From positions 1-54,623 of the IMG/VR virus record IMGVR_UViG_3300042471_000954: 54,623 nucleotides of DNA, one strand, 5' to 3'. The stretch is from a virus. Both the position numbers and the translations under genes were made by a program. Of the stretch, positions 25,258-50,068 are shown piece by piece (the stretch's first letter is position 1; the number at the start of each line of letters is the position of its first letter). The notes beneath the pieces were generated by a model, which was not told where the DNA came from, did no database searches, and saw nothing but the letters and a program-made list of their open reading frames with translations.

Positions 25258-26769
25258 TCATGCCGCCACCGTCGGCTCTACCTCATCCAGCGGTGTGCTC
25301 ATATCCAGCGGCGTGGTCGTGTCGTTCCGCCCTGGTGTTGGCGCCCCCAGCGTCGGCCGCTCCTTGCGAATCCGCTCCATCTCGTCTTCCACGCTGCTCG
25401 TTGCCCGGTTGAACCCACCGCGCTGCAGCTCCTCCACGGCGCTTTCCTGGCTGATCAGCGGCTCACCACCGGTTAGATCCATCAGTGCCTTGGCGCCCTG
25501 TGCATCGAGCGGCGGGACAAAGGCGTTCTCGTCCATCGTGAGGCCAGCCCCGACAGGTAGCTCCTCCCCGGTATAGAGGCACCAGATCGCCAGGATGGAC
25601 TGCATCGCGGACTTCTTACGCTCGCCCAGGGACTTAATGCTCACCTGAGTCCTGCCGCCTTCCAGTTGCGCCTGCGTGGCCGTCTTGGTGATCTTGCTGT
25701 CACCGCTGAGGAAGCCCAGTAACTGCTGGTTGATCAACTCCTCCACCTCTTTCACCTGCTCCCGCTGCTCGGCTAGGGAAGTTGCACTGGGCTCGCGGAA
25801 GAAGAAGTCTCCGTCCTTATCAACATCGACAGCCGTGTTAGGGCCAATCACCAGCGGTGTGACTGCTTTGCCAGGCATCGGCGGAGGGGCGCCCTTCCTC
25901 ACTGGCACCGGCATGGCGCACTTGCGAGTTTTCTCCTTCAGGTCGGAGCGCATCTGGAAATGCTCGATGCAGTGCTCCACCACCTGGCGAAGCGGCTGCC
26001 CACCCCTGCCGAACCCGGCCTTCTCGGCTGGATACCAAACTACCGGGCAGATCGGCAGCGGCTTCTGCTTGGCGTCCAGGTATTGGCCATTGCTCACCTC
26101 GTCAATAGTTAGCCTGCCGTCTGCCTGCTTGGTCAACTTGTACAGCGTCCACTTCCCCGCCTCGATCACCCGGTAGCGCTCCTCATAGATCACCCCAAAG
26201 TCACCATCGGGGGAATCAACCTCAGCCCATTCCAGGAACGTGCAGCGGGTCACCACCTCCACCGAATTGACAATGGCGGTCCGCCAATTCAGGCAGGTTG
26301 AACGGGTGCGGCTGACCAGATACGGGCGCCGCTTCAGTGCAGCCTCGCTGGCCCCATCGGTAGGCTTGCCATCGGGCATCTCCACCAGGACCGGCACCCC
26401 ACCATCTCGAAGGCATAGGGCATCCACGGTGAGCCACCATGCCTCAAGGCTATTGCCCTCTAGGTCAATGTTGTCCTTCGCCCTCTCAAAGGTCGGCGGC
26501 GGGTTCACTAGGTCGCTGCGCGATAGCACCCCTGCGAAGGCTTCGATACCAGCCCTGAAAAAGTCGGCAAACACCGCACGGCCCAGCCTGCCCTGATAGG
26601 CATTGGGCGGTTCCGCTGGTTCGGCCGGCAGATACTTTTGCTTGGTCGCCTCACCCTTCAGGCAATACCAGGCGTCGTAGGCTCGCTCCAGATCCTCGGC
26701 GTGCTCCCGCAGGATCGGATGCCGGAACGATGGCAACTGCGGGTCGGTTCCAGGATGTTCAGATTGCAC
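25258..26769 (-). CDS. Portal protein, DUF4055 type, 503 aa
   Basis: Fits the DUF4055 portal family: YDAWYCLKGEATKQKYLPAE near residue 31, NAYQGRLGRAVFADFFRAGI, a wing region, SDLKEKTRKCAMPVPV and a C-terminal helix zone with LINQQLLGFLSGDSKITKTA and TATQAQLEGGRTQVSIKSLG. The dodecameric portal is the DNA entry channel and docks terminase. Length typical. Position between TerL/sigma genes and MuF agrees. Confidence 0.88.
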   Translation of the reverse strand: MQSEHPGTDPQLPSFRHPILREHAEDLERAYDAWYCLKGEATKQKYLPAEPAEPPNAYQGRLGRAVFADFFRAGIEAFAGVLSRSDLVNPPPTFERAKDNIDLEGNSLEAWWLTVDALCLRDGGVPVLVEMPDGKPTDGASEAALKRRPYLVSRTRSTCLNWRTAIVNSVEVVTRCTFLEWAEVDSPDGDFGVIYEERYRVIEAGKWTLYKLTKQADGRLTIDEVSNGQYLDAKQKPLPICPVVWYPAEKAGFGRGGQPLRQVVEHCIEHFQMRSDLKEKTRKCAMPVPVRKGAPPPMPGKAVTPLVIGPNTAVDVDKDGDFFFREPSATSLAEQREQVKEVEELINQQLLGFLSGDSKITKTATQAQLEGGRTQVSIKSLGERKKSAMQSILAIWCLYTGEELPVGAGLTMDENAFVPPLDAQGAKALMDLTGGEPLISQESAVEELQRGGFNRATSSVEDEMERIRKERPTLGAPTPGRNDTTTPLDMSTPLDEVEPTVAA

Positions 26770-26808: not shown

Positions 26809-27723
26809 TTAGAGCTTCACCGCCTTGGGATGGGGCTTGCGGCGTTGGAAAAGGGACGGCTGCACCACCTCGACCGGTGCGGGCCTTGGCTGGCGGGGGC
26901 GCCGCTCACGGGGCACGGGGGCAATGGTGGCAACTTCGAGCCCTAGGAGCCCCTGGCGGAACTGCTCCAGCGTGCGTCCACGCAGCTGCGCCTTCAGGCG
27001 GTTGTGGAACTGAATCATCGGCCCCGAGGGGTAGGCCCGTTTGAATGGATCAGCCCCCCACCGCTCCAGGAGGCCACGATCAGCGGGGCGCAGGTTGGCG
27101 AACGCTGCATCGGTGAGGGCATAGAGCGCGGGGGCAAGGGCTGCCTCTGTTGCCATCGGCTGATGCTGGCTGAACAGGGTCAGCTCGTCTTCCAGCTCCA
27201 CCGTGCCGACCATGCCGCCGACCATCTCGGTGATCTCCTCCTCCGTGAAGCAGGGCAGGGCCTCGACAACCTGAGCTAGCGTCTGTCCCTCGGCCAGCAT
27301 CCGGCGAACACGGGGGTAGTGCTCACGCCACTTCGATGGCATCTTCACGTCGTAGCCGTGGTCCCTGATGTGGTGTTTAATAGCTCCCTCGATGAACATG
27401 CACACGCAGGTTGAGAGCGCATAGGGGCGATCTGTGGCGGGGTTAATCCTGTGCGGGTCGTAGCGGCGGCACCCGTTGATCAGCCCCTCCAGGGCGGGGC
27501 CGATGAAGTCTTCAAAGGGCCGGCTGCAGCGGCGGGACCACTTAGCAGCGGCTGCCTCAGCTAGCCCCTGGTTCTCAATAATCAGCCGCTCGGAGAGCTC
27601 AGTGCGCGGTGGTGCCCCAGGCTTGGCCGGTTGCTCCAGCGGCGCACCCTTACGCTCCCGGCGCCTGCGCTTGGGGGGCTCCGGGAGGGTATCGGTGGGC
27701 TGTGGCGTGAGGGTGGTGGTCAT
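26809..27723 (-). CDS. Sigma-70-like protein (region 2 intact), 304 aa
   Basis: Residues about 42-132 line up with sigma-70 region 2: SERLIIENQGLAEAAAA (2.1, ENx-L), RPFEDFIGPALEGLINGCRR (EDLIQEG-IGLI-A), YDP, then ALSTCVCMFIEGAIKHHIRD (FSTYA--WIR-AI---IRD) and GYDVKMPSKWREHYP (2.4/3.0, V-x-P). Residues 134-170 resemble region 3. A C-terminal LRPADRGLLERWG may be a worn region 4 without a clear HTH. The gene overlaps TerL as ATGA, inside the packaging operon. Likely a phage sigma or sigma-like appropriator; promoter choice is untested. Confidence 0.8.
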   Translation of the reverse strand: MTTTLTPQPTDTLPEPPKRRRRERKGAPLEQPAKPGAPPRTELSERLIIENQGLAEAAAAKWSRRCSRPFEDFIGPALEGLINGCRRYDPHRINPATDRPYALSTCVCMFIEGAIKHHIRDHGYDVKMPSKWREHYPRVRRMLAEGQTLAQVVEALPCFTEEEITEMVGGMVGTVELEDELTLFSQHQPMATEAALAPALYALTDAAFANLRPADRGLLERWGADPFKRAYPSGPMIQFHNRLKAQLRGRTLEQFRQGLLGLEVATIAPVPRERRPRQPRPAPVEVVQPSLFQRRKPHPKAVKL

Positions 27724-29174
27724 CGGAAACCGGGGATAGCGGACCGTCGCCGGGGTGGTGGGGTCTCCGGCTGCTGCAGCAGTGCGGTGGAGCCGTGGCC
27801 ATAGGTGGCGGTGGTGATCCGCATGGGGCCGCCGGGGCCGTAGCCCAGCTCTGCGGCAAAGATGCGGTGCAGCGGGTAGCCCACGGCATCATTCGGGTGG
27901 TCGTAGCCGGTCTTCTTGTCCGGTTCGCCTTGCTCGTTGTAGGGCTGGCGCTCCAGGGCCTCGATCAGCCGTGGGCACTCTGGGCTGATCCAGAATCGCG
28001 TTTCCCCCTTGGCGTTCAACAGCAGGGCCTGCACCACGTTCACCCGATCGCGTACCGGGGGATTGGCATCAGGGGCGTAGTTGGCAAAGCCGTAGGACTT
28101 CAGGATCCCGATGTCGGAGAGGCTGGCATTGGTGCTGCGGTTAGCGCCGCTGGCATCGGGATAGGCCCAGATTGAACGGTCCGGGAATCGCTCGCGCACC
28201 TTGCGGCATAGGTCATCGGTGTCATGGGCGCCCATGATCTCGGCGAAGGCGTGGGCGATGCCTTTCCGCACCACTAGCAGGACGCCGGACATATTCCCAA
28301 CGTTGAAGTCAATGCCGATCAGGATCTGATCAGTGAGCTGTAGGCCATCGGGTAGCGGCTTAACGTGATAATCACGGTTGAAGCGGTCGTAAACCTGACC
28401 ACTCTTCAGGTTGATATAGATGCCCTCCATGTAGGCCTTGAGCATGTTGCTGGTGTATCGGGTGCGCAGGTTGTCCAGGTAAGCCTCGGGCAGGTGTGGG
28501 TTGTCCTGGGTGCGCATCCTGATCAGCCGCTTGCCAGGATCGGCCTGGGCTTCAACGGTGCCGAAGGTCTTGTAATGCCAGACGAATCCTTCTGGGGTGG
28601 AGAGGAAGACAAGCTGGCTGATATTGCCAACTCGAATGCGGCCGAGGATCTTCTCGTAGCCCCGTGCGGCGATCTGCTCCTGAACGGTGTCCACCTCGTC
28701 AACAAGGGCCCATGCCCAGTCAGGGCCAACAATGCGTTTGAAGTTCTCGAAGCTGCGGGCTAGTACGGGTGTATCACCATCTGGTAGGTGCAGGATGTGC
28801 TCGGGCAGTGGCGATGCGCGGAAGGTGTAGGGGATGCCGTAGTGATCAAGGAAGGCATCAAACTTCCTGATCCAGATGTCCCGCAGCATGGGCCCAGTGG
28901 GCTCCAGCACGCAGCCGATGAAGCCCTGGTTCAGCACCGCAAGCTGAAAGGCTTTGGCACAGGCGCCGAGGGTCTTGCCTGCCCCGTAGCCAGCGGCCAC
29001 GCCGATCTCACGGGTGGTGGTGTCATCAAATAGCTCAACCTGCCCGCCGTGGAGGTCGTCGCGGATGCGAGCGAGGGTGGCGGGGATGTCAAGCCGCATG
29101 TGCGCCGCTGCGGTGCTTTCCAGCTCCAGCACGGCGAGGCGCGAAGAGGGGTCAGGGGCGCGGATGGGGGTCAT
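27720..29174 (-). CDS. terL: Terminase large subunit, 484 aa
   Basis: ATG 29174 is chosen because it overlaps the upstream stop as ATGA. ATPase: Walker A GYGAGKT (residues 62-68), Walker B LVDEVD (157-162), coupling motif FLSTPEG. Nuclease: IGIDFN (286-291), YPDASGANR (D340) and YDHPNDAVGY (D429), the three acidic positions of the RNase H-like fold. It packages DNA into the prohead through the portal. All motifs are intact and length is normal. Confidence 0.95.
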   Translation of the reverse strand: MTPIRAPDPSSRLAVLELESTAAAHMRLDIPATLARIRDDLHGGQVELFDDTTTREIGVAAGYGAGKTLGACAKAFQLAVLNQGFIGCVLEPTGPMLRDIWIRKFDAFLDHYGIPYTFRASPLPEHILHLPDGDTPVLARSFENFKRIVGPDWAWALVDEVDTVQEQIAARGYEKILGRIRVGNISQLVFLSTPEGFVWHYKTFGTVEAQADPGKRLIRMRTQDNPHLPEAYLDNLRTRYTSNMLKAYMEGIYINLKSGQVYDRFNRDYHVKPLPDGLQLTDQILIGIDFNVGNMSGVLLVVRKGIAHAFAEIMGAHDTDDLCRKVRERFPDRSIWAYPDASGANRSTNASLSDIGILKSYGFANYAPDANPPVRDRVNVVQALLLNAKGETRFWISPECPRLIEALERQPYNEQGEPDKKTGYDHPNDAVGYPLHRIFAAELGYGPGGPMRITTATYGHGSTALLQQPETPPPRRRSAIPGFR

Positions 29175-29449
29175 CCCACCGGCCCCACGCGATACACCGC
29201 CCAATAGGCGCCGGGCCCTGGGTGGTCCGTAACGTCAATCAGCTGATGCTCACGTAATGCCGCAATCCGCCTACTCACGGTGGACTGCGAACACTGCCAC
29301 CGGGTCATCATCTCGGCGGTGGTGATCTCCGGGACAAAGCCTGCCGCAATGCGCAAGCCAAGCCATTCGGCAAGCTCCAGGCAATCCAGCAGGGTGCTTT
29401 CACTCACAAAGGGCCGTCGTGCCAGCAGGGTGCGAACGAGATCGGTCAC
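29171..29449 (-). CDS. Winged-helix protein between terminase subunits, 92 aa
   Basis: EITTAEMMTRWQCSQSTVSR then RIAALREHQLIDVTDHPG forms a helix-turn-helix with a wing (EL.--W.CSQSTVSRRI..L...GLI.). ATGA overlaps join it to both terminase genes. It may help terminase recognise DNA or regulate the packaging operon. Not a usual member of a terminase operon. Confidence 0.75.
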   Translation of the reverse strand: MTDLVRTLLARRPFVSESTLLDCLELAEWLGLRIAAGFVPEITTAEMMTRWQCSQSTVSRRIAALREHQLIDVTDHPGPGAYWAVYRVGPVG

Positions 29450-36472: not shown

Positions 36473-36964
36473 TCATGCGCTGGCCTCCCGTGGCAGCTCC
36501 AGCCCCAGCCGCTCCAGGGCCTCCACCACATCAGCCAGCGAGGTCACACCGAACCGCTTGATCCGCAGCAGATCCGCAGGGGTCAGGTTCAACAGGTGGT
36601 CTACCGTGCTCACCCCTGCCCGCTTGAGGGTGTTGTAGGCGCGGACGGTGCGGAGGTCTAACCGCTCGATCGGCACCGATGCCACGGTGGGCTCCGGGGC
36701 TGGCTGGGTGCTTTCCTGCACCTTGGCGGCAATCAATGCCTCCAACCGAGCCTCAACCTGATCTAGCCGGGCAGCCGTGCTAAGCGGTGCTGGTTCTGCA
36801 GCCACAAGGGATAGGTGTTCGCCCGTCCAGACTTTTTCCTGGGTGGTGAACCGGAACCCGCAGGCTTTGCAGACGCAGCGGCGCCGCTTGGCCTGTGCCT
36901 TGGGTTGATAGCGGGACTCAATGACCCGGTGGCCAATGGCTCCGCATTCGGGACAGGGGATCAT
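36473..36964 (-). CDS. NrdR-type zinc ribbon fused to RNA polymerase alpha-CTD-like domain, 163 aa
   Basis: Residues 1-44: CPECG, RVIESR, RRRCVCKACGFRFTTQE, the NrdR zinc ribbon (C4, C7, C32, C35; compare VIDSR and RRR.C..C..RFTT.E), but no ATP-cone follows. Residues 98-158: PIERLDLRTVRAYNTLKRAG, STVDHLLNLTPADLLRIKRF and GVTSLADVVEALERLGLELP, aligning with RpoA C-terminal domains (LdL-VRayN-LKraGI-tv-dLL--t--DLL-ikNfG-kSl-ev---L---GL-L). R108, N111, G139 and S142 sit where E. coli R265, N268, G296 and S299 contact DNA. Middle is a Pro/Ala linker. Likely a transcription modifier working with host RNA polymerase. Confidence 0.82.
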   Translation of the reverse strand: MIPCPECGAIGHRVIESRYQPKAQAKRRRCVCKACGFRFTTQEKVWTGEHLSLVAAEPAPLSTAARLDQVEARLEALIAAKVQESTQPAPEPTVASVPIERLDLRTVRAYNTLKRAGVSTVDHLLNLTPADLLRIKRFGVTSLADVVEALERLGLELPREASA

Positions 36965-37842
36965 GCCGCCACCCCTGAATCAAACAACGAAGCAGACTGG
37001 CCCTCCGCCTGCTCCAGGAATCGGGCAGCCTGGCGGGCGTACTCGGGCTTCAGTTCAACACCGATATAGCGCCGTCCCATCTTCACGGCCTGATAGCCGG
37101 TGCTGCCGATCCCGTTGAACGGATCCATCACCAAATCGCCAGGGTTGCTGTAGAGGGTCAGGCAGCGTTCAATCACATCCAACTGCAACGGGCAGATGTG
37201 TCGTTCATCTTCCTGTCCCTTGGCCATGCGACCGTTTAGCACCTTGGTCTGATTAACCTGCATCCAAACAGGCGAGGCCAGCTCCTGCCACATGCCCACA
37301 GGCAAATCTTCTGGATCGTGGGTGACTGGATCGGGGTTCTCCTGGTCCTTTCGGAAGAACAGCATGTAGTCAGGCATTCCCACTCGACTACGTGTGCTGT
37401 CTTTCTTTAGTTGCTTGTAAAGCAGGCCTAAGGCTTTGGTCCGCTGCATCTCAATCACAGGATCTTTCCAGATTGTGCAGCGAGCGTGGTAGACCCATCC
37501 GGCGTCCTGGTGAGCACGAACAAGGTCGCCTCCAAAGTCATGCAAACCGATGAATCCATCTTTGCTCTTGCGAGCTGGCAGGTCTGAACAATGCACGCAG
37601 GCAACGCGGCCAGGCTTAAGCACTCGATACAGAGCTTCCGTAAAATAGGCGTAATGCTCCATGAACTCTTCATGGCTGCCGCAGTTACCCATGTCCCGCT
37701 CAGAATCTGAGTAAACAAACAAATCAGAGAATGGCGGCGAGAAGATAGCAAGATCAATGATGCCGTCTGGCATTCCGTTCATTACTTCAATGCAGTCGGC
37801 CAGATAAACTGCCCAGCTGTGGCCTTGATAGTCAGGTTTCAT
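36961..37842 (-). CDS. DNA N6-adenine/N4-cytosine methyltransferase, 293 aa
   Basis: ATG 37842 overlaps the helicase stop. Motif IV IFSPPFSDLF (about residue 32) comes first and motif I DPFNGIGSTGYQAVKMGRRY near residue 240, the beta-class order. ADCIEVMNGMPDG precedes. It methylates phage DNA, often to avoid restriction. Paired with an SNF2 helicase as in many phages. The reading frame is also open for 59 codons upstream, inside the helicase gene, but the overlap start is favoured. Confidence 0.9.
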   Translation of the reverse strand: MKPDYQGHSWAVYLADCIEVMNGMPDGIIDLAIFSPPFSDLFVYSDSERDMGNCGSHEEFMEHYAYFTEALYRVLKPGRVACVHCSDLPARKSKDGFIGLHDFGGDLVRAHQDAGWVYHARCTIWKDPVIEMQRTKALGLLYKQLKKDSTRSRVGMPDYMLFFRKDQENPDPVTHDPEDLPVGMWQELASPVWMQVNQTKVLNGRMAKGQEDERHICPLQLDVIERCLTLYSNPGDLVMDPFNGIGSTGYQAVKMGRRYIGVELKPEYARQAARFLEQAEGQSASLFDSGVAA

Positions 37843-39215
37843 TTGAGAAAATCGGGAAGGGTGACTTGACTTGTGCGTGCGTATGCCTTTTTGAACGCCG
37901 CTGATTGATGGCCATTCATCGCTTCGGCCATAGCTCGCTTCATGCGCTGATGATCCTGAGCTTTGCGCTGCACGTTGTTCCAGATTGATGTCTCCGTGTC
38001 GCTGATCACGACGTGACAAGTAACTGGATTGGTCTGCCCATACCGCCAGGCGCGTCGCACGGCTTGGTAGTGCTGCTCATAGCTGTGGCTGACACTGGCG
38101 AAGATCACCGTGTTGGCGTGCTGCCAGTTGAGGCCTAGGCCAGCCAGCTTAGGCTTGGAAACGATCACCCGCCGCCGGCCAAAAGTGAAGTCGTCCAGGG
38201 CGGCGATCTTTTCCTCTGGGTCCATGGAGCCATGCACCTCGATAGCGTCGGGGATGGACTGAGCGAGGGCCGATGATTCGCCGTTGGTTTCACACCAAAC
38301 GATCACAGCGCCGTCGGCGGCATTGGCGATCTCGGCGGCCTTAGCCACTCGATCATCCAATGTGAGCCGCTTCTCCTTGTGGATCGTAGTGGCGCTGCCA
38401 TCGGGGATCCTGAACAGCATCCCGTCGGGCACGTCCACGGTGATGTCAGCCGAGACAGTGTGCAGCTCATAGCTGAGCGGCGGCAGCACAAATCCTGAAT
38501 CGTCACCACCTAAATCGGATGGCAACGTGGCGGCCCTGGCCCAGCTGGCTACCCAGCCCCAGAAGTCAGCCTGAGCGTGCCCTTTCAGTCGCCAGTCTTG
38601 GCTGGCGGTGCTGGTGTCGTTGACGAACCACCGGCACAGCATCTCCATGCTCCCGAGATGGCCCAAGAACTCCGAGTGATTGCCCAGCTCCATGTGATCG
38701 TTTGGTGCTGGTGTAGCCGTGGCTGCCAGCCGGTACGGGGTCGATGTAAAGGCATCGCAAAGCAGGCGCTTGGTCGGGCCGGAAAACGCCTTAAGAATGG
38801 AGCTTTCATCCAACACGACGCCGCCGTAGACGCTGGGGTCCAGCTTCGGGAGTCGTTCGTAATTGGCGATGTTCACACCTGACCCGGCCTCTGATTGCTC
38901 GCGGATCACGCGGGCATCGACGCCGATTGCGGCGCACTCGCGCTGCATCTGCCTGGCCACTGCCAGCGGGGTCAGGATCAGCGCTGGACGGCCGGACTGC
39001 TGGGCAAACTCAGCAGCAGCAGCGGCCTCGACCCTGGATTTGCCCAGGCCAGTGTCCAGGAAGGCGGCAGCCCTGCCTTTCTCGCAAACAAACTGCAAGG
39101 TGGCCATCTGATGCGGGAAAAGGCTTGGCCACTGATTGGCAGGGGTAAATCCGTTCGAGGTTGCTGCGGTGCCCTTGCAAGCAATGAACTCCCGATAACT
39201 GGTGAGTGTTTTCAT
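37839..39215 (-). CDS. SNF2/DEAD-like helicase, 458 aa
   Basis: Motif I LDTGLGKSRVEAAA (about 53), Ia LILTPLAVARQMQREC, motif II VVLDESSILK, motif III ATATPAPNDHMELG, then a C-terminal RecA-like lobe with VIVSKPKLAGLGLNWQHANT and motif VI QHYQAVRRAWRYGQ. ATP-dependent translocase on DNA, here immediately upstream of a methyltransferase, a pair found in many phages. No nuclease domain. Role in recombination or anti-restriction is inferred. Confidence 0.9.
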   Translation of the reverse strand: MKTLTSYREFIACKGTAATSNGFTPANQWPSLFPHQMATLQFVCEKGRAAAFLDTGLGKSRVEAAAAAEFAQQSGRPALILTPLAVARQMQRECAAIGVDARVIREQSEAGSGVNIANYERLPKLDPSVYGGVVLDESSILKAFSGPTKRLLCDAFTSTPYRLAATATPAPNDHMELGNHSEFLGHLGSMEMLCRWFVNDTSTASQDWRLKGHAQADFWGWVASWARAATLPSDLGGDDSGFVLPPLSYELHTVSADITVDVPDGMLFRIPDGSATTIHKEKRLTLDDRVAKAAEIANAADGAVIVWCETNGESSALAQSIPDAIEVHGSMDPEEKIAALDDFTFGRRRVIVSKPKLAGLGLNWQHANTVIFASVSHSYEQHYQAVRRAWRYGQTNPVTCHVVISDTETSIWNNVQRKAQDHQRMKRAMAEAMNGHQSAAFKKAYARTSQVTLPDFLK

Positions 39216-48432: not shown

Positions 48433-49014
48433 ATGACCGGACAACTTGACGGACACCGTGGCATCACGGCGTTCCCGACTTGGCTTCTAGGCCAGGCCAG
48501 CCCGATTGAGCTGGCGATCTTGCTGGCGATCCAGGAAGCACCCGAAAACCGCATCAGCCTCAGCAACATGGCGTGCCAGGCGGGTGTGTGCCGACGAACC
48601 GTCAGCACCACACTGCGCAAACTGGAGGCGCGTGGCTGGCTGACCACGCAGACTGTGATTGAGCACGATGGGGCCAATGGGCCGAACCGCTATGTCCTTA
48701 AAGACTGGGAACCAATCAAACCACTAGAGCAACGGCAGCCGATACCGTTTCGGACGAAAGTCGGGAATGTGCCGGTAGAGCTGCTGAACACCTGCGTCCG
48801 GCGGAAAGGTGTTCTGTTCGTCTACGTGATCTTGCAGACCTTTGAGGCGCCATCAATCTGCACGCTGGCGGTGATGTGCGGCATGTCTCCTGAGGATGTA
48901 CGTCGCTCGCTTCGATGGTTAGAGGAGGAGGGGTGGATCCAGCAGATTCAAAGGCCAGGCTCCACCAGCCAGTTTCGGGTTTTCTTTAAGCGCATCGGCG
49001 CCTATGCGGGTTGA
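48433..49014 (+). CDS. Replication-initiation-type winged-helix protein 1, 193 aa
   Basis: ITAFPTWLLGQASPIELAIL, LAIQEAPENRISLSNMACQA, GVCRRTVSTTLRKLEARGWL is a winged helix; a second one follows (SICTLAVMCGMSPEDVRRSL, RWLEEEGWI). The first is a paralogue of 49025-50068 (LPNWLFGQAT--EL-LLLALQ). Good GGAG upstream. First gene of the replication operon; may be an initiator partner or regulator. Confidence 0.72.
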   Translation: MTGQLDGHRGITAFPTWLLGQASPIELAILLAIQEAPENRISLSNMACQAGVCRRTVSTTLRKLEARGWLTTQTVIEHDGANGPNRYVLKDWEPIKPLEQRQPIPFRTKVGNVPVELLNTCVRRKGVLFVYVILQTFEAPSICTLAVMCGMSPEDVRRSLRWLEEEGWIQQIQRPGSTSQFRVFFKRIGAYAG

Positions 49015-49024
49015 GGCGGAATCG

Positions 49025-50068
49025 ATGCAAAGCTCAGCAAATGGAAGAGAGGGCGGGTTTACATGCTTGCCGAACTGGCTCTTTGGTCAGGCCACGGCGC
49101 AGGAGCTGGTGTTGCTGCTAGCGCTGCAGCATCACGCCCCGAAGATTCACCCGAGCCTGGCCACGTTGGCGCGGGAATCAGGCCTTGGCAGGAGCACAGT
49201 CTGCCGTCTAATCACCGTGCTTGAGGAGCGCGGCTGGCTTCGTACGGAACGGCGGTTTGCGGACAACGGAGGGAACAACTCGACCGTCTACCACTTGCTG
49301 ATTTGGCCTGTCAGATCGGCAGAATTGGAGCCCACTGAACCCATGACCCTTGTCCCACAGCGGGACTACCCCTTATCCCACAGCGGGACCACCCTTATCC
49401 CAGAGCGGGACCACCCTTGTCCCACAGCGGGACACAAACAATATGAATCTAAGAATAAAAATGAAAACAACAGCCTTAGACCCCCCTTACCCCCCAGCGG
49501 GGGGAACGCGGGCGAGGGGCAGGGCGAGCTGATCACGGTCGAAGCCTTGCCCGTTGTCGTGCCCGTTGATGCTGCGCTTTCCAAAAGCCCGGAATCGGCT
49601 AAGGTTCCAGAACCACCACCACAGACCATGGCCCTGACCAAGCCAGCGCGGAAGCCGCGCTTCCAGCCCTCACACGACCTGATCCCTGCCGAGCTACTGC
49701 CCGTCCATCCCGAGATCCTGGGTTTCTGGGCCGTGAAAGCCGGAGCCCGCACCCAGCAAGCCTGGAACGGCCTGATGACCCAGCTAGCCCTGATCCAACA
49801 GGATCCCCTGGGAGGCACCGAAGCGCTCCGCAGCCAGCTCCAGGAGGGCATCGATCGGGCACCGATCAAGCCGTGGATGTCGGTCACTCACTCGCTGTGG
49901 CGCACCTACGGCATGAAGGGCGCTCGCCCTGGCCTGGGCGGCAACCGCCGCAAGACACCGGAGGAGCACGCAGCCGATTCGATCGCATTCATTGAAGCCC
50001 GCGATGCCCGCAGAGCAGCCGCCGCGTCAGCTCCCGGTCAAACCGTGCCGTGCGAGGTGCTCGCGTGA
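49025..50068 (+). CDS. Lambda O-like replication initiator with internal iterons, 347 aa
   Basis: ATG 49025 aligns with the start of the paralogue (an upstream ATG 49004 is also in frame). Residues about 10-75 form a winged helix: FTCLPNWLFGQATAQELVLL, LALQHHAPKIHPSLATLARE, SGLGRSTVCRLITVLEERGW. Residues about 110-137 are encoded by four iterons (VPQRDYPLSHSGTTLIPERD). The second half, WAVKAGARTQQAWNGLMTQL ... KPWMSVTHSLWRTYGM, is probably the partner-binding domain. Same plan as lambda O: initiator gene containing its own origin. Confidence 0.8.
   Translation: MQSSANGREGGFTCLPNWLFGQATAQELVLLLALQHHAPKIHPSLATLARESGLGRSTVCRLITVLEERGWLRTERRFADNGGNNSTVYHLLIWPVRSAELEPTEPMTLVPQRDYPLSHSGTTLIPERDHPCPTAGHKQYESKNKNENNSLRPPLPPSGGNAGEGQGELITVEALPVVVPVDAALSKSPESAKVPEPPPQTMALTKPARKPRFQPSHDLIPAELLPVHPEILGFWAVKAGARTQQAWNGLMTQLALIQQDPLGGTEALRSQLQEGIDRAPIKPWMSVTHSLWRTYGMKGARPGLGGNRRKTPEEHAADSIAFIEARDARRAAAASAPGQTVPCEVLA
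49350..49480 (+). repeat. Candidate replication origin: four iterons plus A-rich segment
   Basis: TTGTCCCACAGCGGGAC 49350-49366, TTATCCCACAGCGGGAC 49373-49389, TTATCCCAGAGCGGGAC 49395-49411, TTGTCCCACAGCGGGAC 49417-49433. Spacing is 22-23 bp, two helical turns; each has GTCCC/GGGAC or ATCCC/GGGAC arms. They are followed by an A-rich unwinding-type segment at 49434-49480 (ACAAACAATATGAATCTAAG, AATAAAAATGAAAACAAC). Confidence 0.85.

Follow-up and report, generated by a model that had tools for sequence, protein, structure and literature searches.

The window, a 54,623-nucleotide stretch of DNA from a cyanobacterial virus (IMG/VR record IMGVR_UViG_3300042471_000954), carries a sigma-70-like gene inside a packaging cluster (Table 1). 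A preliminary description of this DNA had placed such a gene between the terminase and portal genes. The placement was confirmed by PHROG and NCBIfam sigma matches of the product and by the two neighbors. The TerL neighbor matches phrog_2 (E 3e-31) and phrog_10250 (E 4e-34), and the portal neighbor matches phrog_145 (E 6e-70). The overlap with terL as ATGA, also described earlier, lies at 27720-27723, where the sigma start and the terL stop share these bases. The sigma ORF ends 39 bases before the portal gene. Relatives with 70-100% identity to the window sigma occur at about 70 loci in viral contigs, and one further relative was found in a contig from a Cyanobium genome bin. The pN/pS of the gene is well below 1, indicating purifying selection. 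The sigma ORF is a real, conserved gene.

The sigma-portal block is retained in these relatives, with zero to two small ORFs between terL and sigma. The body of TerL shows 25-28% identity among them or is alignable solely in the last 31-36 residues. Among close relatives, terL is swapped (window 27720-29204, L069-L113) and its last ~30 residues, ...RRRSAIPGFR, are largely kept.

Table 1. Position and basis of the features assigned at the sigma locus
Feature	Coordinates	Strand	Residues, basis or remark
Terminase large subunit (terL)	27720..29204	(-)	stop overlapped by sigma start as ATGA
Sigma-70-like factor gene	26809..27723	(-)	304 aa, ATG start; ORF, sigma families, homologous loci, pN/pS
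Sigma region 2	27334..27606	(-)	residues about 40-130; PHROG and NCBIfam alignments, AlphaFold helices
Region-3-like helices	27208..27333	(-)	residues about 131-172; aligned with marine phage lineage and host SigF-type sigmas
Worn region-4-like helical domain	26938..27141	(-)	residues about 195-262; hhalign to host SigF-type sigmas
Proline/arginine-rich linker	26866..26937	(-)	residues 263-286; pN/pS 0.46, low pLDDT
QPSLF, predicted beta-clamp-binding motif	26848..26862	(-)	residues 288-292; family conservation, host DnaE match, pN/pS
Basic C-terminal end xRRKPHPKAVKL	26812..26847	(-)	residues 293-304; almost invariant in family alignment
Portal	25258..26769	(-)	next gene downstream of sigma in every relative with enough sequence

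Sigma core and region 4

The window protein matched phrog_36098 (E 2.9e-14), phrog_351 (E about 1e-12), the NCBIfam SigF model PRK07408 (E 1.3e-13) and the SigBFG model (E 2.6e-10). The SigF model also matched 15 of 15 relatives (best 4e-17). All PHROG and NCBIfam alignments were confined to residues 39-186. A bacterial sigma in the PDB, 8x6g chain H, was matched by the family profile (E 1.4e-5). The AlphaFold model, of moderate confidence only (pLDDT 61), contained the expected helices, at residues 42-50, 52-66, 71-86, and 107-122 in region 2 and at residues 130-144, 149-155, and 161-171 in the region-3-like part. Foldseek grouped the model with sigma factors (best PDB match E 1.1e-4). The best viral match (E 4.5e-6) was a 206-residue phage protein, which has the same length as the annotated S-CBS2 gp077. 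The low pN/pS of region 2 (0.21) indicates strong purifying selection. The earlier claim of a recognizable region 2 is upheld by these matches, and by homology the protein is a sigma-70 factor of the group-3/SigF type. At the motif quoted as FSTYA--I-AI---IRD, the sequence is YALSTCVCMFIEGAIKHHIRD.

A Sigma70_r2 profile search had been proposed as a check and as a means of refutation. The Pfam model gave no significant match to the window protein alone and weak matches in 8 of 15 relatives (best 0.009). Given the other sigma matches, Pfam Sigma70_r2 under-calls this family. As a refutation test it would mislead, because Pfam misses the protein while PHROG, NCBIfam and profile comparison agree.

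Pfam Sigma70_r4 matched neither the window protein nor any of the 15 relatives. When the window family was aligned with host SigF-type sigmas using hhalign, the alignment reached residue 260; a 4.1-like stretch (LRPADRGLLERW) is kept and the 4.2 helix-turn-helix is broken. The C-terminal domain modelled alone had no PDB fold match, which ruled out region 4 as a cryptic fold. Of the two terms used before, "worn or absent", the former fits. Region 4 is decayed; therefore, -35 recognition has probably been lost.

C-terminal motif in two sigma lineages

The strongest constraint in the protein falls on the tail. Over its final 18 residues, pN/pS in the window family is 0.13, lower than in any other part, compared with 0.46 for the linker next to it. 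In all complete copies of this family, Q[PS][ST]L[FL] follows a proline-rich linker and lies about 12-15 residues before the end; the codons of the motif differ silently, and conservation within each sigma lineage is partly due to relatedness. In the window sigma, the motif is QPSLF and sits in a low-pLDDT tail of the AlphaFold model. The preliminary description overlooked this clamp-type motif, which offers a way for a sigma to act when its region 4 is not functional.

A second lineage comprises more than 50 marine-type loci, whose sigmas show about 30% identity to the window sigma over the sigma core and are homologous to it in regions 2-3 (hhalign P 97.7, E 2e-12). A sigma singular to the window was ruled out by these loci and about 70 freshwater-type loci. 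An exact terminal Q-x-x-L-F was found in 41 of 46 marine-type loci; one other locus ends in QGNVF, three are without the motif, and S-CBS2 has the motif in a neighboring frame. The tail variants are QGSLF, QASLF, QPSLF, QPNLF, QGNLF, QGALF and others. In the motif-bearing marine-type sequences, column conservation is 100% for Q, 97% for L and 100% for F, against a mean of ~60% in the preceding ~90 columns. Terminal QGSLF is present in S-CRES1, S-CRES3 and, in the alternative frame, S-CBS2. The annotated S-CBS2 sigma frame (L063 7010-7742, L157) ends early after VPQGRC, and the next frame continues to ...LQGSLF and a stop, which suggests a frameshift or sequencing error in the GenBank record.

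The motif is not universal in terL-adjacent sigmas, because it is missing in PSS2 and in contigs L166, L167 and L169, all poor in region 4. The sigma of S-CBWM1, poor in region 4 as well, is also without it. The setting after terL, in a packaging operon formerly regarded as an unusual home for a sigma factor, is not singular. The SigF-type sigmas of S-CBS2, S-CRES1/2/3 and PSS2 share homologous regions 2-3 and the same place after terL with the window sigma; the order terS-terL-sigma, with sigma directly next to terL, is annotated in S-CBS2, S-CRES1 and S-CRES3, and the PSS2 sigma follows an unnamed ORF of terL size. The lineages differ in the tail, where the motif is internal in the window family but forms the exact end in the marine sigmas. 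Because it is internal in the window family, a degradation tag or other end-signal was ruled out. Its different position in the two lineages points to a linear motif rather than a folded contact.

Motif assignment, replication genes and promoters

The bacterial beta-sliding-clamp motif is Q-phi-x-[L/M]-[F/L], in which position 2 is tolerant, position 3 is free and F or L comes last; C-terminal tails are a frequent site of such motifs (PMC11139829). QPSLF of the sigma fits this pattern in a low-pLDDT tail, and DnaN binding is predicted. DnaE of the Cyanobium host has QGNLF or QGSLL at the positions that align to the E. coli polymerase III alpha clamp site, where the 5fku sequence is QLDLF. The native E. 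coli motif is QADMF, and the clamp-bound structure had strengthened motifs (PMC11139829). The QGNLF of Cyanobium DnaE is also found among the phage sigma tails. The DnaE motif resembles these tails, but is internal and serves DNA synthesis. Position 2 of the sigma motif is P or G rather than the preferred aliphatic Leu; hence, the affinity for the clamp could be modest.

The motif is absent from ten phage sigmas whose region 4 is intact, from host SigF-type sigmas, and from S-CRES1 gp7, a second sigma beside the motif-bearing one in the same genome. Bacterial SigF, SigB and SigG, the group-3 sigmas, resemble the window sigma in region 2 and the following helices. They keep the region-4 helix-turn-helix and are without the clamp motif, whereas the window sigma is the reverse. 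Near the C-terminus of other ORFs in the sigma loci, the motif is rare and occurs mostly in DNA methyltransferases (QPDLF), which ruled out a chance motif.

Searches of the window, its relatives and the marine phages detected no DnaN-type clamp, family A polymerase (PolA) or polymerase III alpha (PolC). A search for a T4-type (gp45) clamp gave no match, but its control was silent. As no phage clamp was detected, the clamp for the sigma tail would be host DnaN. The window encodes O-like replication initiators and SSB, and replication of the phages seems to rely on the host replisome. Two adjacent ORFs at 48433-50068 both match O-like replication initiators and are possibly one split or duplicated initiator.

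TATGAT promoters without a -35 element had been proposed as targets of the sigma, a proposal that promoter counts do not favor. The window has 11 TATGAT boxes against 7.6 expected by shuffling, and 12 of 100 shuffles were as high; the boxes are not enriched. Nothing recognizable as a consensus sigma-70 promoter was found, and aligned late intergenic stretches among relatives gave no recognizable late promoter motif.

Proposed role and alternatives

In T4, gp55 is a region-2-only sigma that grips the phage clamp gp45 with a C-terminal motif, preceded by a variable linker; through this tether, late promoters fire on replicating DNA (PMC2988020, PMC7892883). Function is retained when gp55 and gp33 are fused and the clamp motif is internal (PMC2988020). 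The reading preferred here, with a probability of roughly 0.6, is that the window protein would be a phage late sigma of gp55-like action, tethered to the host clamp, with late transcription coupled to replication. We infer its DnaN binding, promoter type, late timing and replication coupling. Region 2, of SigF/group-3 descent, would bind the beta-prime clamp helices of host RNA polymerase and read a -10-type element. QPSLF on its flexible linker, in place of region 4, would tether the holoenzyme to host DnaN that is loaded on phage DNA under replication. The late genes, for packaging and structural proteins, would then be switched on at replicating templates, perhaps solely on DNA being copied. 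Several observations count against the clamp tether, among them the residue at position 2 of the motif, the lack of the motif in PSS2 and contigs L166, L167 and L169, the conservation of the 12 residues that follow QPSLF, and the failure to find a late promoter motif in the window.

Alternatively, the protein could be an ordinary SigF-type phage sigma on free RNA polymerase, with a QxxLF tail that contacts polymerase (e.g., the beta flap), a coactivator or another phage protein. This is unlikely, although the sigma homology is firm, the worn region 4 may retain flap binding, and the clamp motif is assigned only by resemblance. The tolerated changes (Q and L unchanged, positions 2 and 3 variable, and either F or L at the end) follow the clamp-motif pattern (PMC11139829), and the tail matches host DnaE at the clamp site. 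The occurrence of the same motif on DNA methyltransferases, and its shift from a terminal place in one lineage to one about 12-15 residues short of the C-terminus in the other, also argue against a free-polymerase sigma. It is improbable that a decayed, inactive sigma is retained as a structural or packaging protein. Such a role would explain the terL-portal position, and the operon position, the conserved portal neighbor and the worn region 4 agree with it; however, constraint is highest in region 2 and the tail. Moreover, the marine lineage has the sigma beside a dissimilar TerL (no BLASTP similarity of the window TerL to that of S-CRES1 or PSS2) and before a DNA primase, not a portal. There is slightly less chance still of a role in shutting down host replication, in which the tail would draw the sigma to the clamp or obstruct the clamp and transcription would be secondary. 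Clamp-motif proteins such as SocB block replication via the clamp (PMC9690074), but a block of this kind would hurt phages that seem to rely on the host replisome, and region 2 is strongly constrained.

Read as a clamp-tethered late sigma, the window protein resembles T4 gp55 in its diverged region 2, its lack of a working region 4, its flexible linker and a short, hydrophobic motif towards the C-terminus that is predicted to bind a clamp (PMC2988020, PMC7892883). By sequence it groups with SigF, not with gp55. No gp55 chain was among the PDB sequence matches to E 1, and the best Gp55 fold match had E 0.17. T4 gp55 uses an LDFL-type motif to bind gp45, which the phage encodes, whereas the window sigma has the bacterial Q-x-x-L-F and no phage clamp was found. 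Moreover, gp55 works with gp33, whose arm carries more weight than that of gp55; the window sigma keeps a worn region 4 in cis, and a separate gp33 counterpart was not identified here. A wider proposal, tentative and a little short of even odds, is that cyanosiphoviruses have a T4-independent form of replication-coupled late transcription via the host beta clamp. In this proposal, a single chain would combine a gp55-like region 2, a flap-binding region 4 remnant in the role of gp33, and a host-type clamp motif.

A search confined to the open-access literature did not reveal any published case of a sigma tethered to a host clamp; a 2022 review names T4 gp45 as the sole clamp for such a role (PMC9690074). 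According to work cited in PMC10452541, an S-CBS2 sigma, perhaps not the same one, altered growth and metabolism when expressed in Synechococcus elongatus. If the tether is true, a second, unrelated origin via the host clamp would make the coupling of late genes to replication a more general phage solution. It would also explain late-gene timing in a phage without its own clamp, and the coupling would be testable with ordinary bacterial clamp reagents.

Clamp-type ends were also seen in other phage proteins. The DNA methyltransferases (L078 4789-5868, window 36961-38019) end in QPDLFAGVAA or similar, the window's own being QSASLFDSGVAA, and this end is likely another clamp motif. In the marine-type loci (L115-L171), three related ORFs (NKVLWVDDRVSIIPE...) have a QEPLF end, and a 557-aa ORF of primase size has a QQALF end; these ORFs are candidates for further clamp clients.
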